The position numbers and the translations under genes were made by a program. Below the pieces are notes generated by a model that worked only from the letters and a program-made list of their open reading frames with translations, did not search any database and was not told the origin of the DNA. From Flavobacterium haoranii (GTDB lineage Bacteria > Bacteroidota > Bacteroidia > Flavobacteriales > Flavobacteriaceae): a stretch of 64,000 nucleotides of DNA. The stretch lies in contig NZ_CP045292.1 of assembly GCF_009363055.1 (NCBI RefSeq), positions 2,807,083 through 2,871,082 of the forward strand, in the 5' to 3' direction. Positions 43,677 to 62,956 of this stretch are shown here, piece after piece. How positions within the stretch are numbered: position 1 is the first letter of the stretch; each line of letters starts with the position of its first letter.

Positions 43677-44723
43677 ATGAAAAAAATATTGATTACCGGT
43701 GGTGCAGGATTTATTGGCTCACATGTGGTTAGGAGGTTTGTGAAAAACTATCCCAACTATCAAATTTTCAATTTAGATGCACTTACCTATGCAGGTAATT
43801 TAGAAAATATTGCGGATATAGAAAATGAATCAAATTATACCTTTATAAAAGGAGATATAGTAGAGGCAGATTTTATAAACAATCTTTTTCATGAACATCA
43901 ATTTGATGGAGTTATTCATTTAGCGGCTGAATCCCATGTGGACAGATCAATCACAGACCCACTGAGTTTTGTAAAGACCAATGTAATTGGAACCATGAAC
44001 TTACTAAATGCAGCTAAAGATTCGTGGAACGATAATTTTGATAATAAACGTTTCTATCATATTTCAACAGATGAGGTGTATGGTTCACTGGGAGCAGAAG
44101 GCTTATTTACAGAATCAACAGCTTATGATCCAAAATCACCTTATTCTGCATCAAAAGCAGCATCTGACCATTTTGTACGTGCTTACGGAGAAACCTATGG
44201 CCTACCTTATGTGATAACAAATTGTTCTAATAATTACGGTCCTAACCATTTTCCAGAAAAATTAATTCCATTATTTATTAACAATATAATCGAAAATAAA
44301 CCGTTACCTGTTTATGGCGATGGTAAATATACCCGTGATTGGTTATTTGTCGAAGACCATGCTAGCGCAATTGATTTGGTTTTTCATGAAGGTAAAAATC
44401 AGGAGACCTATAACATTGGAGGTTTTAATGAGTGGCAAAATATAGATTTAGTAAAACTATTATGTCAACAAATGGATAAAAAGTTGGAAAGAAATGAAGG
44501 GGAATCCGAAAAATTAATTACATTTGTAAAAGACCGACCTGGACATGATTTAAGATATGCTATTGATGCTACAAAAATCAATAAGGAATTAGGTTGGAAA
44601 CCCTCTGTAACTTTTGAACAAGGATTGGAAAAAACAATAGATTGGTTTTTGTCAAATAAAGAATGGTTACAAAATGTTACATCAGGCGAGAACCAAAACT
44701 ATTACCAAAAGCAATACAAGTAG
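43677..44723 (+). CDS. rmlB: dTDP-glucose 4,6-dehydratase
   Basis: This 348-aa extended SDR enzyme converts dTDP-glucose to dTDP-4-keto-6-deoxyglucose. It has GGAGFIGSH (residues 8-16), HLAAESHVDRSI, the active-site STDEVYGS and the catalytic YSASK. The C-terminus shows the family GHDLRYAIDATK motif. It is followed after three bases by rmlA. No rmlC or rmlD is present, so the product is expected to go to WecE (dTDP-Fuc4N) rather than to rhamnose. Only one rmlB serves the two downstream wecE modules. Confidence 0.95.
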   Translation: MKKILITGGAGFIGSHVVRRFVKNYPNYQIFNLDALTYAGNLENIADIENESNYTFIKGDIVEADFINNLFHEHQFDGVIHLAAESHVDRSITDPLSFVKTNVIGTMNLLNAAKDSWNDNFDNKRFYHISTDEVYGSLGAEGLFTESTAYDPKSPYSASKAASDHFVRAYGETYGLPYVITNCSNNYGPNHFPEKLIPLFINNIIENKPLPVYGDGKYTRDWLFVEDHASAIDLVFHEGKNQETYNIGGFNEWQNIDLVKLLCQQMDKKLERNEGESEKLITFVKDRPGHDLRYAIDATKINKELGWKPSVTFEQGLEKTIDWFLSNKEWLQNVTSGENQNYYQKQYK

Positions 44724-44726
44724 AAT

Positions 44727-45599
44727 ATGAAAGGAATAATCTTAGCAGGAGGTTCAGGTACTAGACTACATCCTCTAACGATCGCAGTATCCAAACAATT
44801 GCTACCCATCTATGACAAACCAATGATTTATTATCCCTTGTCGGTTTTGATGTTAGCTGGAATTAGAGAAATTTTAATTATTTCCACGCCGCACGATTTA
44901 CCCAACTTCATCAAGTTACTAGGAGATGGTAGTCAGTTTGGAATTCAACTTTCTTATGCCGAGCAACCTTCACCCGATGGATTGGCACAAGCCTTTATCA
45001 TCGGTAAAGCGTTTATAGGTAATGATGACGTATGTTTGGTGTTAGGAGACAACATTTTTTATGGAGCTGGTCTACAAAAATTATTAGCTGAATCTGTTCG
45101 AAAAGTACAAGAGCATAGACAGGCTGTAGTGTTTGGCTATTATGTAGAAGACCCTGAACGTTATGGTGTGGCTGAATTTAATGCAGCAGGTAAAGTATTG
45201 AGCATAGAAGAAAAACCCAAAGCACCGAAATCGAATTATGCGGTGGTAGGGCTTTACTTTTATCCAAGCTCAGTGGTTCAAATGGCCGAACAAGTGAAGC
45301 CTTCTGCTCGCGGAGAACTTGAGATTACCTCAGTAAACCGGTATTACTTAGAAAACGATATTTTGCATTTACAAATCATGTCCCGTGGTTTCGCATGGCT
45401 CGATACGGGCACACATGAAGCGTTGACAGAAGCAACGGAATTTGTAAAAGCGGTGGAAAAAAGAACGGGTCTCAAAATTGCTTGTTTAGAGGAGATTGCA
45501 TTGAGAATGAATTACATTTCATATGAAAAGTTAAATGAGATAGCGATCCATGGCGGAAAAAGCGATTATTTTAAGTATCTTAATAAATTGATTAAATAA
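44727..45599 (+). CDS. rmlA: Glucose-1-phosphate thymidylyltransferase (copy 1)
   Basis: This 290-aa enzyme joins dTTP and glucose-1-phosphate to give dTDP-glucose. The signature [11 protein letters not shown] (residues 8-18) and [38 protein letters not shown] and [10 protein letters not shown] are all present. It heads the first RmlA-(Wzx)-ATP-grasp-acyltransferase-WecE module. A second, highly similar copy is at 56902-57756; the two differ mostly in the last 30 residues. Confidence 0.95.
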
Positions 45600-45603
45600 A
45601 ATT

Positions 45604-47039
45604 TTGAAGGGATTAAAACAAAAAGCTTTAAACGGAGCAAAATGGAGCTTACTCGAAAAAGTTATAAATATCGGGTTTGAATTTGCAGTTGGTATTGTTT
45701 TAGCGAGGCTGCTAATGCCTACTGATTTTGGTACTGTTGCTATTATTTCTGTAATCATTTCATTTTCATTGATATTTGTAAATAGTGGATTTAGCCAATC
45801 ACTAGTCAGAGACCCAGAGGTTGGCAATAAAGATTTTTCTACAATATTCTTTTTCAATTTGGCTGTAGGAATACTTTTTTATGGCTTTATTTTTTTTCTT
45901 TCACCCAGTATTGCTAGTTTTTATGAGAATAATGAATTGACATTATATGTTAAGGTTCTCGGATTATCGATTTTCTTTTCTTCGCTTACCCTTGTACAAA
46001 GAGTAAACCTAACAAGGGAGATGAATTTTAAATTGATGAGTAAAATAGGCATAGCATCCAGTTTATCCTCAGGAATTTTAGCACTAGGTATGGCATTTAG
46101 TGGATTTGGGATATGGAGTTTAATAGCAAAGACTATATCACGAGAAATAATTCAAACGAGTTTGTTTTGGTTTAACAATAAATGGAAACCTTCATCCGTA
46201 TTTGAGTCAACAATTTTAATGAAGCACTTCAAATATGGGTCAAATTTTCTTTTAAGTGCTATTATTGGACAATTTTACAATAATATTTTAGCGTTGACTA
46301 TAGGTAAAATTTATAATCTTCAAACTCTAGGATACTATAATCGTGCACAACTTTTTTCTAATACAATTTCAGAAAATGTTGGTGGTGTTATGACAAGTGT
46401 TTCCTTTCCTGCTTTAGCGAAGGTTCAAAATGATAGAGAAAAATTTGTTAATGGAGTTAGCTTATTATTGAGACAAGCTTTCTATGTCATAGGAATATTA
46501 ATGATTTTAGTGTTTTTTTCAGCAAAGGCATTTATACCTTTTTACTTGGGAGTCAATGGGAAAAAGCTGGTGAATATTTACAATATCTATCTGTTATTGG
46601 TTTTTTTGGTATGTTAAATTCTATATTAGTAAATTCTATTAGTGTAACAGGTAAATCAAATATTTATTTGTTTATTCAAATTTGGGCGTTGGCTTTAAAT
46701 ATTATTTCTTTGACTTTTGGCTATTTTTATGGAATAGAGGTAATGTTATCACTTCTAATTTTATTTTATGTGTTTTCATATTTATTAATATCTCATGTCT
46801 TCAATCTTTTTTTCAATTATTCGATATTAAATCAATTTAAAGATTATAAATCTTTGATGAAAGTAATCGTTCCAGCAATGTTAATTGGGATTATTTTTTC
46901 GATCTTTGAAAGTTCAATGTTTATGGTATTGCTCATGGTAATTTCACAATTGACTTATGTTTTTATTGTATCCTCATGGTTGAAAATAGAAGAATTTGAA
47001 CTTATTAAGAATTTAATTTTTAAAAAAGATAGACGATGA
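45604..47039 (+). CDS. wzx: Wzx-type oligosaccharide flippase (frameshifted)
   Basis: The reconstructed 478-aa polytopic protein of the MOP/polysaccharide transporter family has about 12 hydrophobic segments. It begins KGLKQKALNGAKWSLLEKV, typical of the lipopolysaccharide biosynthesis flippases. The start is TTG 45604, four bases after rmlA. The frame breaks near 46551, where one missing A restores LGSQWEKAGEYLQYLSVIGF. Its stop overlaps the ATP-grasp start (ATGA). It would flip lipid-linked repeat units for Wzy polymerisation. The second copy of the module lacks this gene. Confidence 0.88.
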
Positions 47040-48208
47040 AACTAGCCATTTTAGGAGCAAGTTATTTACAAGTCCCATTGATTAAAAAAGCAAATCAAAT
47101 GGGCTTGGAAACACATGTATTTGCATGGGAAGAAGGAGCTGTTGGTAAGGAATTAGCTTCTTATTTCTACCCAATTTCAATTTTGGACAAAGAAGCTATT
47201 TATCAGAAATGTAAAAAAATTGGCATACATGGAATTACTACTATAGCAACAGATATTGCTATGCCAACAGTTAATTATGTAGCGAAAGAACTCAATTTAA
47301 TTGGGAATTCACTTGAAGCAACCTTAATTTCTACCGATAAGTATGAAATGAGGAAGGCTTTATCATCTAAAAATATTCCTTGCCCACGGTTTAGTTTTTA
47401 CGAAGTAGATAATTTTCAAAATGGTGAAAGTTTTGAATTTCCATTAATTGTTAAACCAACTGATAGATCCGGTTCACGTGGCGTTTCAAAAGTTAATAGT
47501 ATTGCCGAAGCGAATTTAGCCATTAGAAAAGCGCTAGATAATTCAATTAATAAAAGAGTTATTGTTGAAGAGTTCATTAATGGAAAGAATGAATTTTCGG
47601 TTGAATGTATAAGCTTTAAAGGAGAAATTTTTCCATTAGTCGTGACTGATAAGGTAACAACTGGGACACCCTATTTTTGTGAACTTGAGCACCATCAACC
47701 AGCTCAAATAAGTGATGAATCAAAAAATAGAATATTTCAATTGACCATTGATTCTCTAAATGCATTAGGTTTAGTAAATGGAGCATCACATACGGAAATT
47801 ATTTTAGATGAAAATGATAATCTTCATATTGTTGAAGTTGCAGGAAGAATGGGAGGTGACTTTATAGGAAGCCACTTAGTAGAACTATCAACTGGATTTG
47901 ATTTTTTGAAAGCTACTGTAGATGTTGCTTTGGGGTGTTTTAATTATGATAAATATGTATTTCCTAAAAAGAATGAATTTTCTGGCGTTTATTTTTTAAG
48001 CGGGCAGAAAGGAAAAATAATTGACGTAATTTATAAAACTGAGGAATTCCCAGAAGTTGTTGATATTAAAGGATTGATAGAAATTGGAGATAATATTGAT
48101 GGAATTGTTGATGGATCAGATAAAAGAATTGGTTATGTGATTTATTCTTCAAAAATTGCAAGGCCTTTAGTTAACCCGAGTAAAGTATTAAATATCGTGA
48201 TCAATTAA
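47036..48208 (+). CDS. ATP-grasp carboxylate-amine ligase family protein (copy 1)
   Basis: This 390-aa protein has an N-terminal Rossmann-like preATP-grasp domain (ILGASYLQVPLIKKA), the ATP-grasp core (STDKYEMRKAL; PLIVKPTDRSGSRGV, about residues 140-155; VEEFINGKNEFSVE) and the metal-binding region EVAGRMGGDFIGSHLV. ATP-grasp ligases join a carboxylate to an amine or thiol through an acyl phosphate. Set between a flippase and an acyltransferase/aminotransferase pair, it may couple an amino acid or other acid to the 4-amino group made by WecE. The substrate is inferred, not seen. A second copy is at 57774-58958. Confidence 0.87.
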   Translation: MKLAILGASYLQVPLIKKANQMGLETHVFAWEEGAVGKELASYFYPISILDKEAIYQKCKKIGIHGITTIATDIAMPTVNYVAKELNLIGNSLEATLISTDKYEMRKALSSKNIPCPRFSFYEVDNFQNGESFEFPLIVKPTDRSGSRGVSKVNSIAEANLAIRKALDNSINKRVIVEEFINGKNEFSVECISFKGEIFPLVVTDKVTTGTPYFCELEHHQPAQISDESKNRIFQLTIDSLNALGLVNGASHTEIILDENDNLHIVEVAGRMGGDFIGSHLVELSTGFDFLKATVDVALGCFNYDKYVFPKKNEFSGVYFLSGQKGKIIDVIYKTEEFPEVVDIKGLIEIGDNIDGIVDGSDKRIGYVIYSSKIARPLVNPSKVLNIVIN

Positions 48209-48209
48209 A

Positions 48210-48842
48210 ATGATTAAAGTCTTAGCAATAATTGGTTCAGGACACCTTGGACAACAAATTGCACATTATGCAATATCTGACAATCACTTTGATGAAGTTG
48301 TTTTTTTTGATGATTACAACAAGGATGCCTATGTTAATGGTTATAAAATATTAGGTACTACTAATAACATTTTAATTGAATACCAAAAGGGTAACTTTAC
48401 TCAACTTGTCGTAGGTATTGGCTATAAACATATGAATATCAGAAAAGATTTTTTTGAAAAATATAGAAATGTAATACCTTTTGCTACAATTATTCACTCT
48501 AGTTGCTGGGTTGATAAAACGGCTACTATTGAGCCAGGCTGTGTCATCTATCCAGGCTGTTCTATAGAACCTAATGCAGTTATTAAACACAATGTTATTT
48601 TAAATGTCTCTTGTAGTGTAGCTCATGATTCAGTGATTGGTTCGCATTCTTTTTTATCACCAAGAGTGGCTATTGCAGGTTTCGTTAAAACTGATGAATG
48701 TTGCATACTAGGCATTAATTCTATAATTATTGATAACATAAGTATCTGTGATAATGTACAATTAGGTGCAGGAACTGTAGTAATTAGTAATATAAATAAA
48801 AAAGGATTGTATGTAGCTAATCCGCATAGATTTATAAGATAA
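48210..48842 (+). CDS. NeuD/PglD-like sugar acyltransferase (copy 1)
   Basis: This 210-aa protein has an N-terminal Rossmann-like sugar-binding domain (LAIIGSGHLGQQIA) and a left-handed beta-helix of hexapeptide repeats (CVIYPGCSIEPNAVIKHNV). The likely catalytic His is in SVAHDSVIGSHS. PglD and NeuD types acetylate UDP-4-amino sugars or sialic acid. Here it most likely acylates dTDP-Fuc4N, standing in for the GNAT enzyme WecD of enterobacterial common antigen. The C-terminus reads YVANPHRFIR. Copy 2 lies at 58951-59582, in the same order next to ATP-grasp and wecE. Confidence 0.88.
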   Translation: MIKVLAIIGSGHLGQQIAHYAISDNHFDEVVFFDDYNKDAYVNGYKILGTTNNILIEYQKGNFTQLVVGIGYKHMNIRKDFFEKYRNVIPFATIIHSSCWVDKTATIEPGCVIYPGCSIEPNAVIKHNVILNVSCSVAHDSVIGSHSFLSPRVAIAGFVKTDECCILGINSIIIDNISICDNVQLGAGTVVISNINKKGLYVANPHRFIR

Positions 48843-48845
48843 AAT

Positions 48846-49981
48846 ATGATACCATTTAACAAACCCTTTCTCACGGGTAAAGAAGCCCATTACATGTACG
48901 ACGCAGTACATACAGGTAAATTATCAGGAAACGGCAAATACACCCAAAAATGCCAAAAATGGTTTGAAGAAACCTATGGTTTTGGTAAATGTTTGCTAAC
49001 CACTTCTTGTACGGATGCCTTAGAAATGGCTGCGATATTAATTGATATTCAACCTGGTGATGAGGTAATATTACCCTCTTATACCTTTGTTAGTACCGCC
49101 AATGCTTTTGTATTGAGAGGAGCAAAATTGGTGTTTGCTGATAGCAGAAAAGACCATCCAGGTATAGATGAGTCATCAATAGAAGCATTGATTACTCCAA
49201 AAACAAAAGCTATAGTTCCTGTTCATTATGCGGGTGTGGCGTGTGATATGGATATCATCATGGACATAGCTCAAAAGTACGGTCTTTTTGTAGTGGAGGA
49301 TGCCGCACAAGCGATAGATAGTTATTATATAGGTAGGGATGGGGTAAAACGTGCCTTGGGCAGTATTGGACATTTGGCAGCTTTTTCGTTTCACGAAACT
49401 AAAAATATTATTTCAGGGGAAGGAGGTATGCTAGCCATCAACGATTTGCAATTTGCCAAACGAGCGGAGATTATTTGGGAAAAAGGAACCAACCGGTCTT
49501 CTTTTTTAGAGGAGAAGTAGATAAATACGGTTGGGTGGATGTAGGTTCTTCGTTTTTACCCTCTGAAGTTATTGCTGCTTTTTTATGGGCACAATTCGAG
49601 AATATCCAAGATATTCAAAAACGCAGATGCACTATCTGGAATACCTATTACAATGAACTTACGTCATGGGCTGAAAAACATGAAATAAGAATGCCTTTTG
49701 TTCCTGATTTTGCTTCAAATAATGCCCATATGTTTTATTTGGTTTGTAAAGATGTTGAACAGCGGACTAGGTTAATTGATAGGTTAAAGTCAAATAGTAT
49801 TTTGGCTGTTTTCCATTATATCAGTTTACATAAGAGCCCTTTTTATGAAGGCAAACACGATGGTAGAAATTTGCCTGAATCAGATAGATACACTGATTGT
49901 TTGGTAAGGTTGCCCATGTATTATGATTTGGAACAAGAACAGCAAGAATTAATTATCAAAGTACTTTTGGATGAAAAATAA
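48846..49981 (+). CDS. wecE: dTDP-4-amino-4,6-dideoxygalactose transaminase (copy 1, frameshifted)
   Basis: The reconstructed 378-aa PLP enzyme of the DegT/DnrJ/EryC1 class begins MIPFNKPFLTGKEAHYMYDA. It tracks E. coli WecE/RffA closely: LTTSCTDALEMAAILIDIQP, PSYTFVSTANAFVLRGAK, VPVHYAGVACDMD, VVEDAAQ and the Schiff-base lysine region SFHETKN. It transfers an amino group from glutamate to dTDP-4-keto-6-deoxyglucose to give dTDP-Fuc4N. The frame breaks at 49502-49507: six T's where seven restore SSFFRGEVDKYGW, as read in copy 2. The stop overlaps the WecF-like gene by 11 bases. Confidence 0.93.
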
Positions 49982-50993
49982 AGTATTGCATGTAATGATT
50001 GCGGAGAAAAAATTTACACTACCCTTAGTAGATTTTATTCTAAATGAATTGAAGCTTGATAATCATAGGTTTTTGATTTTTGATAATGGTATTAAAATAA
50101 GTAATGAAAGCGAAAAAGTTTCGGTTATTCAGACGCCTTTTAGAAATAATCTCACAAGAAATTTTTTGTTATACAGGAAATTGATCAATAATTCTGATAA
50201 AATTATTTTACACAGCTTACACTTTCTAAATTTACTTTTATTTTTTCCATTTAAATGGAAAATAATCTCATGGGTAATTCACGGTGCTGATTTATATGGA
50301 AGATTAAATAAATCGAAACAATCAATATTTGAAAAATTAGTAATCAGTTATTTCGACAGGCATATTACACATATTGAGGGAGACGCAAGGTTAGCTAATG
50401 AAGTGTTTGGTTCAAATGCTAAATTTCATTATTCCCCAATGTACCTGAGTAATGTTGTTGAAACAGCGAATTTTAGAATTTCAAATTTAAAAGACTCTGA
50501 TTATACATTGCTTTTGGGAAACAGTCTGAGTAAAAATAATAATCATATTGCTGTATTAAAAAAACTTAAGGCTCACGATAACCAATTAAGTAAAATTATT
50601 TGTCCTTTAAGTTATGGAAATGACTTAGCATATAGAGATGAGGTAATTGGTTTGGGACTGAAGCTATTTGGAGAAAAATTTCAACCATTAACCGAATTTA
50701 TGCCTCGTACTGAGTATGAAAAATTACTCGAAACAGTAGATATAGCATTATTTGATCATTGGCGTCAAGAAGCGATGGGAGTAACACTATCTTTACTAGC
50801 CTTAGGTAAAACTGTATATATGAGAAGCGCCACAGAATCTTTTAAATCACTTATAAATAGAGGTTTTAAGGTTTTTGATAATCAAATATTATTTGAAGAA
50901 GGTATCAGACAACAAGATGTTATATTAAATAAAAAATTGCTTGAAAAGTATTATGGTATACAAACTCTGAAGCAATCAATAAAATCTCTTTAA
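49971..50993 (+). CDS. wecF: Fuc4NAc transferase, WecF-like (GT56)
   Basis: This 340-aa glycosyltransferase matches the Glyco_transf_56 family. Key segments are SWVIHGADLYGRL (E. coli WecF has a WHIWGADLY equivalent), YTLLLGNSLSKNNNHIAVL (donor-site GNS...HI), PLSYGNDLAYRDEVIGLG and the late LFDHWRQEAMGV. WecF moves Fuc4NAc from dTDP to the lipid-linked disaccharide in enterobacterial common antigen synthesis. Here it overlaps wecE, so it is the natural user of the acylated Fuc4N made by this cluster. The family assignment is by recognised motifs, not by a search. Confidence 0.87.
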   Translation: MKNKVLHVMIAEKKFTLPLVDFILNELKLDNHRFLIFDNGIKISNESEKVSVIQTPFRNNLTRNFLLYRKLINNSDKIILHSLHFLNLLLFFPFKWKIISWVIHGADLYGRLNKSKQSIFEKLVISYFDRHITHIEGDARLANEVFGSNAKFHYSPMYLSNVVETANFRISNLKDSDYTLLLGNSLSKNNNHIAVLKKLKAHDNQLSKIICPLSYGNDLAYRDEVIGLGLKLFGEKFQPLTEFMPRTEYEKLLETVDIALFDHWRQEAMGVTLSLLALGKTVYMRSATESFKSLINRGFKVFDNQILFEEGIRQQDVILNKKLLEKYYGIQTLKQSIKSL

Positions 50994-50994
50994 T

Positions 50995-52080
50995 ATGAAA
51001 ATAACCCTCATCGCTGGAGCCCGCCCCAACTTCATGAAAATCGCCCCTATCATTCACGCTATTCAAAAGGTACAGTTTGATGGTAAAGATATTAGCTACC
51101 GTTTGGTACACACAGGTCAGCATTTTGATGAAAAAATGAGCCATACTTTTTTCACTCAATTGAATATTCCGGAACCTCATGTTAATTTAAATTGCGGAGG
51201 AGGCACACAAGCCGAACAAACAGCTGCCATTATGGTCGCTTTTGAAAAAGAATTGATGGAAAATCCTACTGATTTGGTATTAGTAGTTGGTGATGTAACC
51301 AGTACCATGGCTTGTAGTATTGTGGCTAAAAAGCTCAACACCAAAGTAGCACATGTAGAAGCGGGTATCCGCTCTGGAGACCTGAGTATGCCAGAAGAAA
51401 TCAATAGAATTGTAACGGATAGCTTAACGGATTATTTTTTTACGACGACACCTTGGGCAGGAGGAAATCTCTTAAAATCTGGTGTTGCAGCAGATAAAAT
51501 TTTTTTGGTGGGAAATGTAATGATTGATACGCTTTTGGCTAATCAACACAAATTTGAGGCACCTAAGTTTTGGGAGGATTACCAATTAAAGAAAAAAGAG
51601 TATTTTGTAGTAACATTGCACCGACCAGCGAATGTAGATAATGCCGACAAACTGAAGGAGATGATTCACGAAATTACATCTAATGTAAAAGGATTACCTA
51701 TTGTTTTTCCGATGCATCCAAGAACTGCCAAAATTTACAAAGAATTAGGGATTTCTGCACCTAATTTATTTATTGTTGATCCTTTGGGGTATCATGAATT
51801 TAACTATTTAGTAGAAAATGCTTTAGGAGTCATAACAGATTCTGGTGGAATTACAGAGGAGACCACGGTAATGGGTGTTCCATGCATTACATTAAGAGAC
51901 AATACCGAAAGACCAGAGACCATTGAAATTGGAACGAATGAACTCATTGGTACAGATCCCAAAGCCATAAAGCCAGCGTTAGAAAAATTATTGTCTAATC
52001 AATGGAAAAAAGGAAGCATACCTGAGTTGTGGGATGGAAAGGCAGCGGAGAGGATAATTAACTATTTGCTAAATCTATAA
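50995..52080 (+). CDS. wecB: UDP-N-acetylglucosamine 2-epimerase (non-hydrolysing)
   Basis: This 361-aa enzyme interconverts UDP-GlcNAc and UDP-ManNAc. The N-terminal GARPNFMKIAPI, the active-site HVEAGIRSGDLSMPEEINR and the UDP-binding TDSGGITEE segment are all typical. It starts two bases after the WecF-like gene. No dedicated WecC (UDP-ManNAc dehydrogenase) is seen, so ManNAc may enter the glycan directly or be oxidised by TviB-type enzymes; which of these applies is open. Confidence 0.95.
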   Translation: MKITLIAGARPNFMKIAPIIHAIQKVQFDGKDISYRLVHTGQHFDEKMSHTFFTQLNIPEPHVNLNCGGGTQAEQTAAIMVAFEKELMENPTDLVLVVGDVTSTMACSIVAKKLNTKVAHVEAGIRSGDLSMPEEINRIVTDSLTDYFFTTTPWAGGNLLKSGVAADKIFLVGNVMIDTLLANQHKFEAPKFWEDYQLKKKEYFVVTLHRPANVDNADKLKEMIHEITSNVKGLPIVFPMHPRTAKIYKELGISAPNLFIVDPLGYHEFNYLVENALGVITDSGGITEETTVMGVPCITLRDNTERPETIEIGTNELIGTDPKAIKPALEKLLSNQWKKGSIPELWDGKAAERIINYLLNL

Positions 52081-52083
52081 AAA

Positions 52084-53063
52084 ATGAATTTAAGTGATAT
52101 TAAATTGCACATAAGCCAATTAATTGGTAGAAATAAAATTAGAACTTATGTTCATCAACTTATTAAGGTATCGAAATATAGGTTTTATGGAAAAAAAACT
52201 GAACCAAAAGTAATCTATTTTATAGATGGATCTAATTATGGTGGAGGACTTACGGATAGGCTTAGACAGATAATGGGTATATATACAATTTGCAAAAGCA
52301 AGGGTTATAAATTTGGATTAATTGCTAATCATCCTTTTGAATTATCAGACTATTTAAAACCAAATTATGATTGGTTGGAATCAACCAGTGAACTATCTCG
52401 AAATATTTTACATACAAAACCTATTTACCTAGGTTTTAGGTCAAGAGATGAATATTTATCTTTAATTCATCTAAAAAAAAGACAATTACATCTTTGGGGA
52501 AGTGTTCATTGGGGATGGTTTGATGAATTGGCTACAGAATGGACGAAATATTTTGGGAGCTTTTTAAACCAAATCCTATAATTACAGAATTAATTAATAA
52601 GTATAAAAGCCAATATCATTCTTGGGATTGTATTGTTTTTAGATTTCAAAATTTATTGGGTGATTTTAATGAGCATCAAAGTGCAAATTATGGAAATGTT
52701 AAACTTAACCACAATCAACAACAAGAATTAGTTGATATCTGCTTAAAATATGTAAAGAATAGAACTAGCGATTCAAAACATTTCACTTTGGTGTGTGCAG
52801 ATTCCCAGACTTTTTTGGAGATAGTCAAAAATTTGCCAAATGTATTTGTAATTCCAGGAAAGTTAACTCATATGGAGTATAGTGCTTCAAATGATTTCAA
52901 TTTACATCTAAAAAGTTTCGTTGACTTTTTTATGATTTCTGAAAGCGATTCAGTAGAAAGTGTTGGAACGGAGATAATGTACCCAACAGATTTTCCTGTT
53001 ACGGCAGCTGCAATAAGAAATAAGCCATTTAAAAGAGTATTATTAAATTCTAATGAAAAATAA
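52084..53063 (+). CDS. Putative glycosyltransferase of unrecognised family (frameshifted)
   Basis: The reconstructed 326-aa protein contains IYFIDGSNYGGGLTDRLRQI, which resembles the donor-loop region of fucosyltransferase-fold enzymes (GG-L-DRLR), and a later VCADSQTFLEIVK. The frame breaks at 52541-52542: one more G would read ATEWDEIFWELFKPN and join the two halves. Membership of a defined GT family could not be established by eye. It lies in a tight operon (three bases after wecB, 11-base overlap with the next gene), so a role in assembling the repeat unit is likely. Confidence 0.6.
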
Positions 53064-54165
53064 AAAAATATTAATCATCACTGGCGCCTTTTACCCTGCA
53101 CAAAGTCCGAGATCATTTCGTGCTACGGAGTTGGCCAAAGAATTCTGTCGACAAGGACATCAGGTAACGGTTATGGCACCCTTCAGAGAGGGTACGGATA
53201 AATTGGCTCAGGAATATGGTTTTCAGTATAAGTCTTTAGGAATCTTAAACTGGCGCATATTTAACTTTAAAAGTTTAGGCGTAGTAGGCAGATTATACAA
53301 CAAGGTGGTTAATCGCGTTTTGCCCTTACTTTTTGAATACCCTATGATGGAGTTGTTTTATAAGGTACGGAAGGCTTTAAAACAGGAAAAAAATAGCTAT
53401 GACCTAATGATTTCTATTGCTGTACCTTATTCAATACACTGGGGCATAGCATCTGTTTGGAAAACGAGTGGCAATAATGTGGCAAAAAAATGGTTTGCTG
53501 ATTGTGGAGATCCCTATTGTTTGCAAGAAAATGATACATTCCAGTCACCATTCTATTTTAAGTTGGTTGAAAAATGGTTTATGAGGAAAGCCGACTACAT
53601 TACTGTACCCACAGTAAATTCTTTCAAAGGCTATTTCCCCGAATTTCACTCTAAACTCCGCGTTATACCCCAGGGTTTTCGCTTTGAAGATATTGAAAAA
53701 CGTGAAACCATAAATGATGGTATTCTTCGCTTTGGTTATGGAGGTGCATTTATTCCGGGTAGAAGAGATCCGAGAGAGTTTATAGCATTTTTAACCTCTT
53801 TACCCAAGAGTTTAAAATTCGAATTTCACATATTTACATCTACTCCACAATTTGTGTTACCCTTTGTAGGTGATGATATACGAATTCTGGTTCACCATCC
53901 CATTAATCGCAAAGAACTACTAGCGACATTATCTTCTTTTCAGTTTGTTGTTAACTTTGCCAACAAAGGTACGGCTCAAACCCCAAGTAAATTGATTGAC
54001 TATGTCATAATAGGAAAGCCTATCTTAAATATTGAAACGGGAAGTTTAGATGCCGAAATTATCAAGCAATTTTTACAAGGCATTTATGCGAATGCATTAC
54101 AGTTGGAAAACGTTGATAAGTACAAAATTGAAAATATTGTTCATTTGTTCCTAAAATTAGTTTAG
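53053..54165 (+). CDS. GT4-type glycosyltransferase
   Basis: This 370-aa protein has the two-Rossmann (GT-B) layout. The N-terminal opening ITGAFYPAQSPRSFRATELA is typical of GT4 enzymes, with a charged HQVTVMAPF strand. The C-terminal domain contains FGYGGAFIPGRRDPREF and the QTPSKLIDYVIIGKPIL segment, a variant of the usual PSKLxEYxAxGKP motif. It would add one sugar of the repeat unit; donor and linkage cannot be told. It overlaps the preceding gene by 11 bases and is one base from the Wzy-like gene. Confidence 0.85.
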   Translation: MKNKKILIITGAFYPAQSPRSFRATELAKEFCRQGHQVTVMAPFREGTDKLAQEYGFQYKSLGILNWRIFNFKSLGVVGRLYNKVVNRVLPLLFEYPMMELFYKVRKALKQEKNSYDLMISIAVPYSIHWGIASVWKTSGNNVAKKWFADCGDPYCLQENDTFQSPFYFKLVEKWFMRKADYITVPTVNSFKGYFPEFHSKLRVIPQGFRFEDIEKRETINDGILRFGYGGAFIPGRRDPREFIAFLTSLPKSLKFEFHIFTSTPQFVLPFVGDDIRILVHHPINRKELLATLSSFQFVVNFANKGTAQTPSKLIDYVIIGKPILNIETGSLDAEIIKQFLQGIYANALQLENVDKYKIENIVHLFLKLV

Positions 54166-54166
54166 T

Positions 54167-55416
54167 TTGAAAAACACCACCTTTACTAAGCAACAGTTTT
54201 TTGTTTTATGGTTGATTAATCCATTTATCAGCGCATTGATGCTATTGAGAAACATGAAAGGAGTATCCTCTATGGGACCTTATTTATTGATTTCATTTTT
54301 TTTTGGGTTTTCTTTTGTGATGGCCCCGAACTCTGGAGCGGATTCAACGCGTTACGCACAAGAATTAAAGCAGTTGTATGATAGCAAAGTTTCATTTGAT
54401 GCTTATTTTTCTCAGATATATAGCGAAGAAAGTTCAAAATTGGATATTTATCAACCACTGCTTACATGGCTCGTGAGTCAATTCACTGGAAACTACCAAT
54501 GGTTGTTCGGGATTTACGCCATAGTGTTCGGATTTTTTTGGTTTAAAGCCATACGGATGGCTAGGTCATTATTACCGGATAGGTTGTCTCTATTTTTCGT
54601 TCTTTTAATTTTACTTTTTGCTTTTATTAATCCGATTTGGTCTATCAATGGGGTTCGCATGTGGACAGCGGTGGGTATTTTTTTTTACGGTTTGTTGTTG
54701 TTACATTTTATGAATAATAAGAAAGGCTATGTATTTGTTGTACTTCCAATATTTGTTCACTTTTCATTAGTTTTAGCTTTAGCTTTGTATCTTGTATATC
54801 GCTTACTGCCCACCAAAAACTTTTTGCTTTTATATGGTATTTATGTGCTTACTTTTTTTATTGGTGAAATGGATTTAGGTGTTATTCGAACTTACTTTAA
54901 GTTGTTACCTGGTTTTGTTCAATCAAGGCAAAGTTATTTGGGAGATGAATATGCTGAGGGGTAAAATTAGCTAGTGAGCAATACATTGGTCATATCATAA
55001 TGTATCGTAACCTGTTTAAATATGTAATCATTAGTATGGTGAGCTGGATATATTTATCTATGTTTTTTAAAAAAGCTAAATCTATTTTAAAATTCAATCA
55101 ATTTTTTGCCATGGCTTTAATTTTCAGTGCCTTTTCCAATTTGGCCAGTCAGATTCCCTCGGGAGGCAGATTTGCCGTTTTATCTAGTTTATTGGTAGTA
55201 TTTAGTTTTATTTGGTATTTATCAAGGGAAGTAAATGGGTATTTACCTAAAAGATTTCAATCCATGGCTCAGTTGATTTTGTTGTTTATTGTGGTTGTTC
55301 AAATTCGAATTGGAGCAGATTATTTTGGAGCCTTTTTATTTATTGGCAATCCAGTGGTTAATTTATTTATTCAAGACAATACACCACTTATTTACTATAT
55401 AAAGTCTATGTTTTGA
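54167..55416 (+). CDS. EpsG/Wzy-like polysaccharide polymerase (frameshifted)
   Basis: The reconstructed 416-aa polytopic membrane protein has about 10-11 hydrophobic segments and the EpsG-family feel, including the large loop GADSTRYAQELKQLYDSKVS and FINPIWSINGVRMWTA. It would polymerise the repeat unit in the periplasm. The start is TTG 54167. The frame breaks at 54958-54961: four G's where five restore AEGVKLASEQYIGHIIMYRN. The stop overlaps the ATG of the following decayed gene (TGATG). Confidence 0.82.
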
Positions 55417-55845
55417 TGTATAAAATATTCATTAAAAGTTTTTTAGGAGGAATTAAAGGTAATGTCACCGGTTCTCAACGTATCAAAGATAAACTATTAT
55501 TCATCGAATCTTATGACCGGAGTGCATACGCACACCATTTTCAGATGCCTTAAAAGTCTTTGCTCTTAAAGGTTTTGAGATAGATAAAAGCCTGTACAAA
55601 GATGATGCTTTGACTTCCAGGGCGGACTTGGAAATGCTTTTTAATCTCTTGTTGATTTTTAAAAATGCAAGCGTTCAGCATCCAGTGATAACCGCTAATG
55701 CAATTATGGCCAATCTGGATTTTGAAAAAATTAAGAAATCTAATTTTAATGAGTATCATTTTGAGCCTTTTACAGAAACTCTAAAACATTATAGAGCATA
55801 AAAGAGTAATGTTTTTATCCAGAGAAGGAATCAATAATAAATTTC
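55416..55845 (+). pseudogene. Decayed 5' part of a polysaccharide deacetylase-like gene
   Basis: Starting MYKIFIKSFLGGIKGNVTG, the region matches the start of the deacetylase at 62957 (DKLLFIESYD against KIVVIESDDWG; KGFEIDKSLYKDDALTS; NFNEYHFEPFTETLKHY). The catalytic DDWG motif is changed to YDRS with a frame slip near 55523-55530. Further small losses occur near 55796-55806, and homology to the deacetylase stops near 55845. From about 55714 to 55790 the DNA is nearly identical to 63249-63325. The gene is then joined to a glycosyltransferase remnant. The substitutions, unlike the simple one-base losses elsewhere, suggest real decay. Confidence 0.8.
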
Positions 55846-56891
55846 TTATTCCTAAAGTTAAAGTAAGTTTTATAAAAAAAGATAATGTTATTTTACATGT
55901 TAGTAGTTTGAATAAAGCTCAAAAATGTGTGGATTTGTTAATGCAGATTTGGAAAAAGCCGTATGGTCAAATTAAAGACTGGAAATTTTAGTTATTAGGA
56001 GAAGGGCTGAGAAAAAAAATATGGAAGAATTCTGCAAGAAAAAATTCACTCCAGATTTAGTGTTGCAATTTTCTGGAGGCGCTTATGAAGAATTTTTTTT
56101 TTTCTTATCCTTTAAAATGGCTTCAAAATTTAATATCCCAAGATATATTCATTCTTACGACCCTTTGCCGGGCTCTACTGATTGGGGTGAAAATGAAATC
56201 ATACGAAAAGCAACAATTAAAATTTTAAAAAAATACTTTAAAAACGGCAGATAGATTATCTGCTGTCAGTCCAAGAATGGTTGATTATTTTAGAAATTTA
56301 TACGATTTAAAAGAAACACAAGTAAAAACTGTATATATGCCAATTCATTATTACGATTTACCTCAAGTTCGTAGTAGAAAAATTAAATTTTTATATTTAG
56401 GAAGCATTTACGGCAAGAGAAATCCTAAACAACTTTACAGGGTGCTTAACGATATGATGGAGAACAATCCAACTATTGAATTTGTTTTAGCTGGTTCTAA
56501 ACTAGATAGAAATATTTTAATTGAGCAATACAAAAACTTTGGTTTTGGTTTATAATTTATAGAGTGGACAGATAGTCCCGATCAATTAATACAGGATTGT
56601 ACGATATTGCTGGATTTAAATTCGAATACTGAAGGCGATGTATTTATTTCATCAAAATTAATGAAATACCTAGGATATAATAAACCCATTTTAGTAATTG
56701 GCCATAAAGAAAGCGCCTCTTATGATTTTTCATCTAAGTTTTCGGGTGTGTATTTTGCATCGAATACTCAAAAAGATATCGAAAGTGCAATGAATCACAT
56801 TTTTGAATCTATTTCAAATGAATTGGTAGGAAAAACAGAAGTTGCTTCCTATTCATTACAGAATATTGTTGAAAATTATATAAACAATTAA
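55846..56891 (+). pseudogene. Broken GT4-like glycosyltransferase lacking its 5' end
   Basis: Fragments in several frames together read as a GT-B glycosyltransferase C-terminal half: DNVILHVSSLNKAQKCVDLL, a GxGxE-like region disturbed by one extra A and one missing G near 55996-56012, IPRYIHSYDPLPGSTDWGE, FLYLGSIYGKRNPKQLY, and KLMKYLGYNKPILVIG. Breaks: one T short at 55988-55992, one extra A at about 56230-56240, and an in-frame TAA near 56553. The first ~150 residues of a normal GT4 are absent; the deacetylase remnant is there instead. Probably non-functional, the product of a deletion fusing two genes. Confidence 0.8.
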
Positions 56892-56901
56892 TTATTTTTA
56901 A

Positions 56902-57756
56902 ATGAAAGGTATCATCCTCGCTGGTGGCTCAGGAACTAGACTCCACCCACTCACATTAGCAATATCCAAACAATTGCTACCCATATACGATAAGCCGATG
57001 ATTTATTATCCGCTTTCTGTATTGATGTTGGCAGGTATTAGAGAAATTTTGATTATTTCTACTCCGCATGATTTACCAAATTTCATCAAATTGTTAGGTG
57101 ATGGGAGTCAGTTTGGCATCAAACTTTCCTATGCAGAGCAGCCTTCACCAGATGGTTTGGCGCAAGCTTTTATTATAGGCAAAGTATTTATTGGCACTGA
57201 TGATGTATGTTTGGCGTTAGGAGACAATATTTTCTATGGTGCTGGGCTTAAAAAATTACTTACCGAATCTGTACGAAAAGTACAAGAGCAAAAGCAAGCC
57301 GTCGTGTTTGGTTATTACATTGAAGACCCAGAGCGTTATGGAGTGGCTGAGTTTAATGAAACGGGTAAAGTTTTAAGTATAGAAGAAAAGCCCAAAAATC
57401 CAAAATCCAATTACGCAGTAGTAGGCTTGTACTTTTATCCAAATTCGGTTGTGCAAGTGGCAGAACAAGTAAAACCCTCTGATCGGGGTGAGCTTGAAAT
57501 TACTTCTGTGAATCAGCAATATCTTCAGGAAGATAACTTACAATTGCAAATCATGTCGCGTGGTTTTGGATGGCTTGATACGGGCATCCATGAAGCCTTG
57601 ACAGAAGCCACAGAATTTGTAAAAGCTGTGGAAAAAAGAACAGGATTGAAGATTGCTTGTTTAGAGGAAGTAGCCTTTAGGATGTGCTATATTGATGAAA
57701 AAAAATTTAATTCACTTCATATTTTGAACGGAAAAGGTTCATACTCCGATTACTAA
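56902..57756 (+). CDS. rmlA: Glucose-1-phosphate thymidylyltransferase (copy 2)
   Basis: This 284-aa protein carries the same motifs as copy 1 ([29 protein letters not shown]) and is nearly identical through most of its length. Its last ~20 residues differ ([16 protein letters not shown]). It sits ten bases after the broken glycosyltransferase and heads the second ATP-grasp/acyltransferase/WecE module. Two copies of the first-step enzyme in one locus are redundant, so the second was probably acquired with the whole module. Confidence 0.94.
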
Positions 57757-57773
57757 AAAAAAATATTTAAAAA

Positions 57774-58958
57774 TTGAAAAAAAATAGCTATTTTGGGTGC
57801 GAGTTATTTGCAAGTTCCATTAATAAAGAAAGCAAATGAAATGGGCTTAGAAACGCACGTTTTTGCTTGGGAAGAGGGCGCTATTGGTAAGGATATAGCG
57901 GATTATTTTTATCCAATTTCAATATTGGATAAAGTTGCAATCTTAGAAAGATTTAAAAAGATTGATATTCATGGAATTACAACCATTGCAACAGATATTG
58001 CAATGCCAACGGTAAACTTCATTGCAAATGAGCTTCATTTAGTTGGTAATTCATTAAAAGCAACTTTAATTTCTACCGACAAGTATGAAATGAGAAAAGC
58101 CTTGTCATCAAAAAACATTCCTTGCCCAAGATTTAGTTTTTATGAAGTAAATAGTTTTAAAAATAATGAAGTTTTTGAATTTCCTCTTATTGTTAAGCCA
58201 ACCGATAGATCAGGCTCTCGTGGTGTCACAAAAGTTAATGATATTATTGGAGCGAATATAGCAATAAGAAAAGCTTTAGATAATTCAATTAATAAAAGAG
58301 TAATTGTTGAAGAGTTTATAGATGGTATGAGAGAATTTTCAGTTGAATGTATTAGCTACAAAGGAGATATCTATCCTTTAGCAGTTACGGATAAAGTTAC
58401 AACAGGAGCTCCCTATTTTTGTGAACTTGAACACCATCAACCAGCTCAAATAACAGACGAATTGAAAACGAGAATATTTCAATTAACTATTAATTCTCTC
58501 AAAGCCTTGGGTCTAGAAAATGGAGCATCACATACCGAAATAATTTTAGATAAAAATGATAATCTTCATGTTGTAGAAGTAGCAGGAAGAATGGGGGTGA
58601 TTTTATTGGTAGTCATCTAGTGGAGCTATCAACAGGTTTTGATTTTTTGCGAGCTACTATTGATGTTGCTTTAGGCAACTTTGATTTTGATAAGTATTTT
58701 AATAGGTTAAATAATAGATTTTCTGGAGTTTGTTTTTTAAGCGGACAACAAGGGAAAATAGTAGAAATAGTGGATAATTCTGAGGAGTTTTTAGAAGTAG
58801 TATATTGTGAATCTTTAAGTAAAATAGGAGATATAGTTGAAGGTATTGTTGACGGTTCAGATAAAAGATTAGGTGTAATAATTTATTCATCAAATACTCC
58901 AAAGCCAATTATTAATCCAAGCAAGGTATTAAATATTGTTATCAATAGATATGATTAA
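57774..58958 (+). CDS. ATP-grasp carboxylate-amine ligase family protein (copy 2, frameshifted)
   Basis: The reconstructed 394-aa paralog of the protein at 47036 carries the same ILGASYLQVPLIKKA, PLIVKPTDRSGSRGV and VEVAGRMGGDFIGSHLVEL landmarks. A TTG at 57774 gives the expected KKIAILGA start, but eight A's follow (57777-57784) where seven keep the frame. Further on, five G's stand at 58593-58597 where six are needed. Its end overlaps the acyltransferase start by eight bases. The C-terminal ~100 residues are the most diverged part, as expected if the two copies act on slightly different acyl donors; that is inference. Confidence 0.84.
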
Positions 58959-59582
58959 AGTTTTAGCAATAATTGGTTCTGGACATCTTGGACAACAAAT
59001 TGCATATTACGCAATATCTGATGGCCACTTCGATAAAGTTGTTTTTTTTGATGATTATAACACAGATTCCTATATAAAAGGTCATAAAATATTAGGTACT
59101 ACATGTAATGTTTTAAATGAATATAAAAAAGGAAATTTTACTGATTTAATTATAGGTATTGGATATAAACATATGTTGAAAAGAAAATTATTTTTTGAAA
59201 AATTTAAAAATATTATTCCATTTGCTTCAATAATACACTCTTCTTGCTGGGTAGATAAAACGGCAATAATTGAAGAAGGATGTGTGATTTATCCTGGCTG
59301 TATAATTGAACCTAACGTATTAATAAAAAGCAACACTATTTTAAATATTTCTTGTAGCATAGCTCACGATTCAATCATCGGTTCACATTCTTTTTTTCAC
59401 CAAGAGTAGCTATTGCAGGATTTGTAAAATCAAATGAGTGCTGTATTTTTGGCATAAATTCGCTTGTTATTGATAATATCAATATTACAGATAATGTTCA
59501 GTTAGGAGCTGGAACTGTCGTAATAAGCAATGTTGACAAAAAAGGACTATATGTTGGAAATCCACATAGATACATTAGATAA
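58951..59582 (+). CDS. NeuD/PglD-like sugar acyltransferase (copy 2, frameshifted)
   Basis: The reconstructed 210-aa paralog of the gene at 48210 is collinear with it from MIKVLAIIGSGHLGQQIA to the end YVGNPHRYIR. The catalytic-His segment SIAHDSIIGSHS is conserved. The frame breaks at 59391-59397: seven T's where eight restore SFFSPRVAIAGFVKS. The start is ATG 58951, matching copy 1; an upstream in-frame start at 58936 lies within the ATP-grasp gene. Confidence 0.85.
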
Positions 59583-59585
59583 ATT

Positions 59586-60712
59586 ATGATACCATTTAAC
59601 AAACCCTCCTTTCAGGTAAAGAAACCCATTACATAGAAGATGCGGTTAAATCAGGAAAAATTTCTGGAAACGGAAAATATTCCCAAAAATGTCAAAAGTG
59701 GTTTGAAGAAACCTATGAGTTCAACAAATGTTTGCTAACCACTTCTTGCACAGATGCACTAGAGATGGCGGCTATATTAATAGACATTCAGCCTGGAGAT
59801 GAGGTAATATTGCCATCTTATACCTTTGTTAGTACCGCCAATGCTTTTGTATTGCGAGGAGCAAAATTGGTGTTTGCTGATAGTAGAAAAGATCACCCAG
59901 GTATAGATGAAGCGTCAATAGAAGCGTTGATTACCCCTAAAACAAAAGCTATCGTACCGGTTCATTATGCGGGTGTGGCGTGTGATATGGATATCATTAT
60001 GGATATAGCACAAAAGCACGGTCTTTTTGTAGTGGAAGATGCTGCACAAGCCATAGATAGTTTTTATACAGGTAGAGATGGGGTAAAACGTGCCTTGGGT
60101 AGTATTGGTCATTTAGCAGCTTTTTCTTTTCATGAAACTAAGAATATTATTTCTGGCGAAGGAGGTATGCTAGTAATAAACGATATGCAGTTTGCTGAAC
60201 GAGCGGAGATTATTTGGGAAAAAGGAACGAATCGCTCATCCTTTTTTAGAGGTGAAGTAGATAAATACGGCTGGGTAGATGTAGGAAGTTCATTCTTACC
60301 ATCAGAAATTATAGCAGCCTTTTTATGGGCTCAATTAGAAAATTTAGAAAAGATACAAAAAAGGAGATTAGAAGTTTGGAACGCATATAATGATAGTCTA
60401 AAATTATGGGCTGCAGAAAATCAAATTGATATGCCACATATTCCTGATTTTGCTACAAATAATGCACATATGTTTTATATGGTTTGTAATTCAATTGAAC
60501 AGCGTACTAGATTAATCGATTACATGAAAAAACTTGGTGTTCAATCAGTATTTCACTATGTAAGTTTGCATACTAGTATTTTTTATCGAAATAAACATGA
60601 TTATAGAATACTGAATGAAACAGACAGATATGCAGACACATTGGTCAGATTGCCATTTTATTATGAGTTGAATGAACAAAAAATTATAGAATTAATTTTA
60701 AAATATAAATAA
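59586..60712 (+). CDS. wecE: dTDP-4-amino-4,6-dideoxygalactose transaminase (copy 2, frameshifted)
   Basis: The reconstructed 375-aa WecE paralog begins MIPFNKP at 59586. One T is missing near 59607; restoring it gives PFLSGKETHYIEDAVKSGK. The region from LTTSCTDALEM through WEKGTNRSSFFRGEVDKYGW is almost identical to copy 1, including DNA, whereas the N-terminal ~45 and C-terminal ~130 residues are clearly diverged. The active-site SFHETKN is intact. This mosaic pattern suggests recombination or gene conversion between copies. Stop and start overlap with the GT2 gene downstream. Confidence 0.9.
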
Positions 60713-61668
60713 TGTCTGAACAAAAAACGTTTACAATTTTTACTGGTACTTATAATTCGGGTAATCACATACAAAAGGTTTTTAAAAGCTTAATTAATCA
60801 ATCATTTACTGATTATGAATGGATAGTTATAGATGATAATTCGCAAGATGATACACCACAAACATTAAATAAATTCATTAAAGAGCATCCTGAGTTAGAT
60901 ATTACATTCATAAAAAATAATAAAAACCAAGGTGTTGCATTAAATAGAATTAGAGCTCTTGAAATAGCTAAGGGAAAATATTTTACTAGTTGGGATCACG
61001 ATGATGAACAAAATGAAAATCAACTTAATTTATTTAATCAACTTTTTGAAAATCATAAGGATAAAAAGATTGGATTTATATTCGCTAAGTGCCAAAATCA
61101 GTTAGGTCAATTATTAGGTAAGAGATTTCCAAAAGATGTTTTCATTTCAAATTATATTAAAATTCATAATGAGTATTTTATAAATAATATAGAAAAAGGT
61201 ATTATAACAGAACATCAAGGTTGTATGCCAACCGAGCTTAATAGAAAATTGTTGAGTGAGATAACTTCTAATCCAAACAAGTATGGTAAGTGCTCAACTG
61301 ATGGAGGAGATTTATGGGGTTTGTGTGCCTATTTAGGATACGATTCAATTTTTACAAATTTTATTGTAAGAAAATATTTTGTAAATTTCGGAGAACGTGT
61401 AACTATGTCATCTGCATCAAGATTGTCTATTACAGAAAAAAATTATTATTCAAAACTACTATGGGTAAACTATTTTAACTCTAAATTAGGAATATCAGAA
61501 ATAAAATGGAAACTAAGGACGCTATTTGCAGTATCCTTATATGGTATAATGTCAGGGTTTAATTTTTGGAAGATTTTGACAGATGTAAAAAAATCACATT
61601 ATAAATTTTTAACAATTTTATTTATATTTCCAGCCAGAATTCTGAGTAAAAAATATTCAAATAATTAA
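60712..61668 (+). CDS. GT2 family glycosyltransferase
   Basis: This 318-aa GT-A enzyme begins with TFTIFTGTYNSGNHIQKVF and shows the nucleotide-binding WIVIDDNSQDDT (about residues 37-48) and a metal-binding DxD-like WDHDDEQ near residue 96. A C-terminal amphipathic region may associate with the membrane. It immediately follows the second wecE and would use a sugar nucleotide of the locus, possibly the product of module 2. Exact donor and acceptor are unknown. Confidence 0.85.
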   Translation: MSEQKTFTIFTGTYNSGNHIQKVFKSLINQSFTDYEWIVIDDNSQDDTPQTLNKFIKEHPELDITFIKNNKNQGVALNRIRALEIAKGKYFTSWDHDDEQNENQLNLFNQLFENHKDKKIGFIFAKCQNQLGQLLGKRFPKDVFISNYIKIHNEYFINNIEKGIITEHQGCMPTELNRKLLSEITSNPNKYGKCSTDGGDLWGLCAYLGYDSIFTNFIVRKYFVNFGERVTMSSASRLSITEKNYYSKLLWVNYFNSKLGISEIKWKLRTLFAVSLYGIMSGFNFWKILTDVKKSHYKFLTILFIFPARILSKKYSNN

Positions 61669-62870: not shown

Positions 62871-62956
62871 TACTTAAATAATTTAAATACCGATGACACT
62901 CTTGTTTACAGATCTTTGAGAAATTACCTTAAGTAAATTTATTTTAATTATATATT

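Follow-up and report, generated by a model that had tools for sequence, protein, structure and literature searches.

In the dTDP-Fuc4NAc pathway of the enterobacterial common antigen (ECA), RmlA and RmlB yield dTDP-4-keto-6-deoxyglucose, which WecE aminates at C4, and WecD serves at the acyltransferase step. Here we analysed the final 64 kb (the window; positions below are window positions) of the single-contig genome (2,871,082 bp) of Flavobacterium haoranii, in which a surface-polysaccharide locus at ~36.5–61.7 kb carries two related gene sets, each comprising rmlA, an ATP-grasp ligase gene, a NeuD-like acyltransferase gene and wecE. We read these sets, with the chances close to evenly poised, as two xenologous cassettes for one class of activated sugar, N-substituted dTDP-4-amino-4,6-dideoxygalactose (dTDP-Fuc4N), made by way of the ATP-grasp ligase and a NeuD-like cap enzyme. 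The locus resembles the ECA pathway in its RmlA, RmlB and WecE families, in a glycosyltransferase of GT56 (the WecF Pfam family), and in the presence of a WecB-like epimerase and a nucleotide sugar dehydrogenase. It differs from that pathway in having a NeuD/PglD-type enzyme, an added ATP-grasp ligase and two cassettes. In addition, the GT56 protein fell below all six WecF equivalog cut-offs listed (at best 251.3 against 457, the five others lower), reaching that of PF07429 alone, and the dehydrogenase was closer by profile score to TviB than to WecC.

The acyltransferases share with the PglD/VioB/NeuD N-acetyltransferases the hexapeptide family, the PglD_N domain and the histidine of the active-site motif, which presumably has an active-site role across that family; unlike the family at large, the ATP-grasp-linked NeuDs are confined to one side of the NeuD tree. 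The ATP-grasp protein recalls the L-amino acid ligases BL00235, BacD/YwfE and RizA. Its predicted structure came nearest to BL00235 by both TM-score and Z, BL00235 ranked second by profile, and the two share the motif E-x-x-x-R-x-GG in the alignment, so that the model combines an L-amino acid ligase fold with this motif. It differs from those ligases in its low identity (~22%), in being tied to a sugar transaminase, and in that 4dim ranked first by sequence.

Amide formation by an ATP-grasp domain in capsule synthesis is described for the C-terminal domain of Campylobacter Cj1438, which, in the available part of that account, is TupA-like and acts on glucuronic acid, with no amino sugar involved (PMC11800379). 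The same source describes, in the part available, two ~87% identical transferases of apparently the same activity in one Campylobacter capsule cluster. Flavobacterium psychrophilum strains differ in which acyltransferase (wfpG/H/I, swapped pglD homologues) modifies a 4-amino sugar of their O-antigen; as far as the accessible part of the paper goes, and unlike here, the substrate is UDP-Qui2NAc4N and each strain has one such acyltransferase, with no paired cassettes (PMC6519341). NMR has long shown N-acyl-aminoacyl 4-amino-4,6-dideoxyhexoses in glycans, N-acetyl-alanyl and N-acetylglycyl 4-amino-4,6-dideoxy-glucose being known residues (PMC3210612, accessible part). A search of the open-access literature, outside which most subscription-journal papers lie, returned no enzyme adding the amino acid to such sugars and no description of an ATP-grasp/WecE cassette. 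We know of no characterised enzyme for that addition.

Self-comparison of the window aligned the block of ATP-grasp, NeuD and WecE genes (47039–49960 with 57781–60703) at 79.2% nucleotide identity over 2932 columns, and the rmlA genes (44727–45509 with 56902–57684) at 80.1% over 785 columns (E reported as 0.0). An earlier note on this DNA had described two collinear modules, and their coordinates, gene content and order are borne out by these alignments. Over the unbroken segments, protein identity was 90% for RmlA, 84% and 64% for the N and C parts of the ATP-grasp protein, 78% for the N part of NeuD, and 96% and 66% for the middle and C parts of WecE. The divergence of the ATP-grasp C-terminus that the note had pointed out thus stands, although the C part of WecE, on which it was silent, has diverged about as much. 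Conserved start contexts hold for NeuD and WecE and fail for the sequences upstream of rmlA and for the ATP-grasp genes, the homologous start of copy 2 being without an ATG. That a single rmlB serves both modules is true inside the window and not of the genome, which has three (100, 76 and 56% identical to rmlB1) along with four rmlA (E ≤ 1e-40). At 13.8–15.9 kb of the contig there is a further rmlB–rmlA pair (76% identity to rmlB1 and 64% to rmlA1), which on a circular contig would be ~17 kb past module 2. The data support two full gene sets for a sugar of the dTDP-Fuc4N type: WecE2 cleared the family cut-offs of PRK11706 (498.4; cut-off 375) and TIGR02379 (464.7; cut-off 434.85), whereas the N piece of WecE1 taken alone fell short of both (370.1 and 353.0).

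Next, we surveyed the genes around 86 ATP-grasp loci (the best 80 of 99 from a genome collection and 6 from the genus, reaching at most ~13 kb), calling a WecE neighbour at ≥40% identity within 6.5 kb on the same strand. WecE stood beside the ATP-grasp gene in 50/86 loci, compared with 6 for rmlA, 4 for rmlB, 3 for a TviB/WecC-like dehydrogenase and none for WecB; among loci with 6.5 kb on both sides the count was 33/55. The search for groupings of ATP-grasp, NeuD-like and WecE genes that the earlier note had proposed found the first and last together in most loci, and a NeuD-like gene in 16/86. A GT2 gene, ArnC-like by our own label for a broad family, was found at a loose threshold in 60/86. 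Loci came from Bacteroidota, Bacillota and Cloacimonadota, with other phyla represented by single members. A first contig scan with a single-protein query had returned no relatives.

The ATP-grasp gene was rare in three overlapping genome surveys, each of which counts this genome: 7/299 genomes of the genus (1e-40), 2/397 of the family (1e-60) and 5/395 of the phylum (1e-60). Among the 4–6 candidates listed per genome, only this genome matched two ATP-grasp genes, and none of the 86 loci held a second match of ≥40% within ~13 kb of the first. The pairing with WecE, present in many phyla yet rare in Bacteroidota (5/395 genomes), makes the aminoacylation step directly testable, together with its variable cap enzymes and the exchangeable central block described below.

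The cap gene varies from locus to locus. NeuD-like genes (16/86) and formyltransferase genes (3/86) accompany ATP-grasp and WecE; the NeuD position is occupied by NeuD in L011, L014 and L018 and by a formyltransferase in L012, L013 and L017, and in the Cyclobacteriaceae locus L017 the order ATP-grasp, formyltransferase, WecE, GT56 repeats module 1 except for the exchanged cap gene. Neither cap gene was found at the thresholds used in 29/31 Bacillota WecE loci. Pfam checks of neighbours covered 20 chosen proteins. NeuDs on ATP-grasp contigs fell on one side of the NeuD tree (8/14 versus 0/21). Separately, KAS III, short-chain reductase and PglD-like genes lie at the contig start (L010:10760–13236); they resemble the kinds of acyl-group genes of the F. 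psychrophilum O-antigen given in the available part of PMC6519341.

From these gene families we propose a route in which RmlA, RmlB and WecE would supply dTDP-Fuc4N, the ATP-grasp enzyme would form an amide, most likely between an amino acid and the sugar's C4 amine, and the NeuD-like enzyme would acylate the free amine of the ligated amino acid. Each cassette's sugar would then be placed by its own transferase, GT56 after WecE1 and GT2 after WecE2. The WecE1 gene overlaps the GT56 gene, whose product is the sole PF07429 match of the genome, and the WecE2 gene overlaps the GT2 gene by one base. One PF13440 flippase match lies in the locus, the two weaker matches in the genome being far off at 1.26 and 2.18 Mb. 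A separate transferase for each WecE together with one such flippase suggests that such a sugar would form two residues within a single repeat unit or else be added at two sites.

The ATP-grasp family is mosaic in its central block (residues 183–275 of copy 1), which comes in two types, named after the G or R that succeeds Lys-x-Thr-Thr; the 120 relatives listed comprised 51 of type G, 33 of type R, 34 without the full motif and 2 others. Trees of the three parts were built from 51 rows (19 G and 32 R): those relatives among P0002–P0060 that have the motif and at least 380 aa, to which copy 1 and P0005 were added. The N-part tree called for 8 type changes and rejected a single R clade (approximately unbiased (AU) test, p=0.003), and the C-part tree called for 10 and rejected it at p=6e-5 (with one set of identical rows left free). 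The central-block tree needed 1 change, at modest support (63/88), as expected where the type itself is read. Relative P0016 shared 88% identity with copy 1 as far as residue 182 and 54–58% within the block. Together, these sequence comparisons point to exchange of the central block by recombination, and the exchangeable block could act as a substrate switch. Both ATP-grasp copies in the window are of type G, so the block gives no sign that they use different amino acids. An ATP-grasp/WecE cassette with an exchangeable cap and an exchangeable catalytic block is new to us. A fuller version of the proposal, which we find rather doubtful, is that the ATP-grasp enzyme is the missing C4-amine aminoacyl ligase for dTDP-Fuc4N, with a swappable acetyl or formyl cap and a central block exchanged as a substrate switch, the two cassettes serving two glycosyltransferases.

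The divergence of the two sets is old. Synonymous divergence (dS) was 1.87 for rmlA, 1.06 and 0.97 for the N and C parts of the ATP-grasp gene, 0.77 for NeuD, and 0.57 and 1.30 for the middle and C parts of wecE, and the ratio of non-synonymous to synonymous divergence (dN/dS) was 0.03–0.25 in each of these six unbroken segments; both copies have thus been mostly under purifying selection since an old split. Sister copies were rejected by the NeuD tree (35 rows; AU p=0.007). The N part of ATP-grasp copy 1 was 88% identical to P0002, P0003 and P0006 versus 84% to copy 2, and the C part of copy 2 shared 74% identity with P0002 and 72% with P0003 versus 64% with copy 1. The wecE middle part showed a lower synonymous proportion (0.40 versus 0.48–0.69 in the five other segments), a hint, and no more, of possible gene conversion there.

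The word "duplicated" in the earlier note therefore fits two related sets and does not fit a recent event: the low synonymous divergence of a recent tandem duplication was not seen, and we judge such a duplication in this genome unlikely from the high dS and the non-sister NeuD copies, the ATP-grasp and WecE trees being compatible with sister copies. Xenologous cassettes is the better term for the two sets. Its further idea, a locus caught in the act of switching one sugar for another, does not agree with purifying selection in each segment since an old split, nor with the unbroken frames of near-identical relatives of ATP-grasp2 and NeuD2. The cassettes would have split long ago, each been kept by selection, and been united by recombination between related polysaccharide loci. 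It would seem that a sugar cassette can be maintained in two coexisting versions, each beside its own transferase.

Several observations weigh against the xenologous-cassette proposal. WecE was missing beside the ATP-grasp gene in 36/86 loci, or 22/55 of those with full flanks, and in L015, L021 and L028 other genes lie between the two. The structure 4dim, first by Foldseek E-value as well as by sequence, carries its depositors' name phosphoribosylglycinamide synthetase and not that of an amino-acid ligase; the ATP-grasp protein reached no curated cut-off among the 25 families listed out of 54, and scored 54.2 bits where BacD NF053745 asks for 850. It may also be the sugar amine itself on which the NeuD-like enzyme acts, and the ATP-grasp protein would then have another role. 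The aminoacylated residues known from the accessible part of the review are gluco-configured, Fuc4N not being named there (PMC3210612). Sister copies were not rejected by the ATP-grasp tree (25 rows; AU p=0.487; C-terminal part p=0.324) or by the tree of the WecE N part (62 rows; p=0.816), and one 50-codon stretch in the C part of wecE had a dN/dS of ~0.6. Copy 2 may be inactive, since the assembly shows three of its frames broken and its ATP-grasp gene without an ATG. Last, the single flippase was counted genome-wide with PF13440 as the one model.

The earlier note had suggested that the modules make two differently N-acylated Fuc4N sugars, a reading that we regard as possible but unlikely. 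The different NeuD clades favour it mildly, and the different overlapping glycosyltransferases and the 64–66% identity of the ATP-grasp and WecE C parts agree with it. The block type, however, is identical in both ATP-grasp copies, and NeuDs of either clade pair with either block type (contigs matched by length). The divergence of the ATP-grasp C-terminus, considered as a sign of functional difference, was rejected: this part evolves fast in the relatives compared, and that of copy 1 (residues 303–390) is equally far, at 58–60% identity, from its close relatives P0002–P0004. Two different sugars are thus not indicated, and one class of sugar made by both cassettes remains our preferred reading.

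Alternatively, copy 2 could be a decaying or replaced remnant, copy 1 alone being functional, which we consider improbable. The three frame breaks of copy 2 and its ATP-grasp gene without an ATG are what this would predict, as is a decayed gene fragment directly upstream of module 2; relative P0005 also starts later. In this assembly, however, the breaks and the missing ATG are inseparable from assembly error. Frames are broken in ATP-grasp2, NeuD2 and WecE2, and also in WecE1, probably in wzx, and in the housekeeping gene glmS (32160–34005, frame shift near 33590), which indicates that at least part of the frame breaks in the locus are probably sequencing errors; the assembly probably carries many small errors. 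P0005 (383 aa) was 99% identical to both pieces of ATP-grasp2 and open across the break, without the first residues, and P0248 (210 aa) was 99% identical to the N piece of NeuD2 and likewise open. The dN/dS of each gene segment speaks against decay as well. Several further window genes look split, as does asnB at the contig start (near L010:1223–1298).

We give little credence to a third reading, in which the ATP-grasp enzyme merely adjoins the Fuc4N genes and amidates a uronic acid, for example a HexNAcA made by way of the WecB-like epimerase and the TviB-like dehydrogenase of the locus. Amidation of a capsule uronic acid by an ATP-grasp domain is established for Cj1438, described as TupA-like in the available part of the source (PMC11800379); the model here best matches BL00235, 4dim, PurK/PurT and BacD, and the surveyed neighbours were a dehydrogenase in 3/86 loci and WecB in none, against 50 with WecE. 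Finally, that the second module is an assembly artefact, such as a collapsed or misassembled repeat, is scarcely credible even in an assembly with frame errors in a housekeeping gene, given the ~20% divergence of the copies, their different flanks and near-identical relatives on other contigs (P0001 for copy 1; P0005 and P0248, which may be from the same species, for copy 2). The xenologous-cassette reading is set against the full locus in the table below.

Features of the polysaccharide locus and its downstream flank (window positions)
Feature	Coordinates	Strand	Evidence and remarks
rmlB1, dTDP-glucose 4,6-dehydratase-like	43677..44723	+	2 further rmlB in genome, 76% and 56% identity
rmlA1, glucose-1-phosphate thymidylyltransferase	44727..45599	+	TIGR01207 460.9 bits, above cut-off 360.65
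wzx-type flippase, probable frame break near 46610	45604..47039	+	PF13440 252.5 bits over 45604–46617
ATP-grasp ligase copy 1, open, 390 aa	47036..48208	+	
NeuD/PglD-like hexapeptide N-acyltransferase copy 1, open, 210 aa	48210..48842	+	TIGR03570 163.4 bits, above cut-off 160.8
WecE copy 1 (dTDP-Fuc4N transaminase family), frame break near 49500	48846..49981	+	PF01041 on both pieces
GT56 (WecF Pfam family) glycosyltransferase, overlaps wecE1	49971..50993	+	PF07429 63 bits, cut-off 25
WecB-like UDP-GlcNAc 2-epimerase	50995..52080	+	PF02350 332 bits
Wzy-like EpsG-family polymerase, probable frame break near 54964	54167..55416	+	PF14897 59.1 bits over 54167–54964
Decayed gene fragment, with a longer homologue from 62951 on, past module 2	55526..55856	+	57% and 67% protein identity
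rmlA2, 284 aa	56902..57756	+	80.1% nucleotide, 84% protein identity to rmlA1
ATP-grasp ligase copy 2, without ATG at homologous start, frame break near 58600	57781..58958 (frame from ~57793)	+	
NeuD-like acyltransferase copy 2, frame break near 59400	58951..59582	+	PF17836, PF00132
WecE copy 2, frame break near 59610, open from 59732	59586..60712	+	PRK11706, TIGR02379
GT2 glycosyltransferase, 1-base overlap with wecE2	60712..61668	+	PF00535 78.5 bits
DDE transposase, piece 61998–62606 with likely continuation in another frame	61822–62630	-	Downstream of the GT2 gene that follows module 2

Large open frames in the locus lie almost all on the + strand and include a NusG-like gene near the head, the TviB-like dehydrogenase, rmlB, rmlA, wzx, the WecB-like epimerase, glycosyltransferases and the EpsG-type polymerase. 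With its PF13440 flippase and its EpsG PF14897 polymerase, both probably frame-broken, the locus has the make-up of a Wzx/Wzy-dependent one; the second wzx piece (46611–47039) and the downstream polymerase piece (55000–55416) had no Pfam match.

The decayed fragment upstream of module 2 was 80% identical at the nucleotide level, over 234 columns, to the homologue that begins at 62951. A transposon repeat at 55624–55852 and 63151–63381 was considered and rejected, these being pieces of one gene family with three members: the fragment, 62951–64000 and a copy at the contig start (L010:4870–5912), which had no Pfam match over L010:4870–5694. A fragment upstream of module 2 and a homologue downstream of it may be scars of recombination between related loci. 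Elsewhere in the window, a long protein-coding region holds repeat units of ~280 bases that are up to 93% alike (30080–31469), with overlapping frames at 30667–30787.

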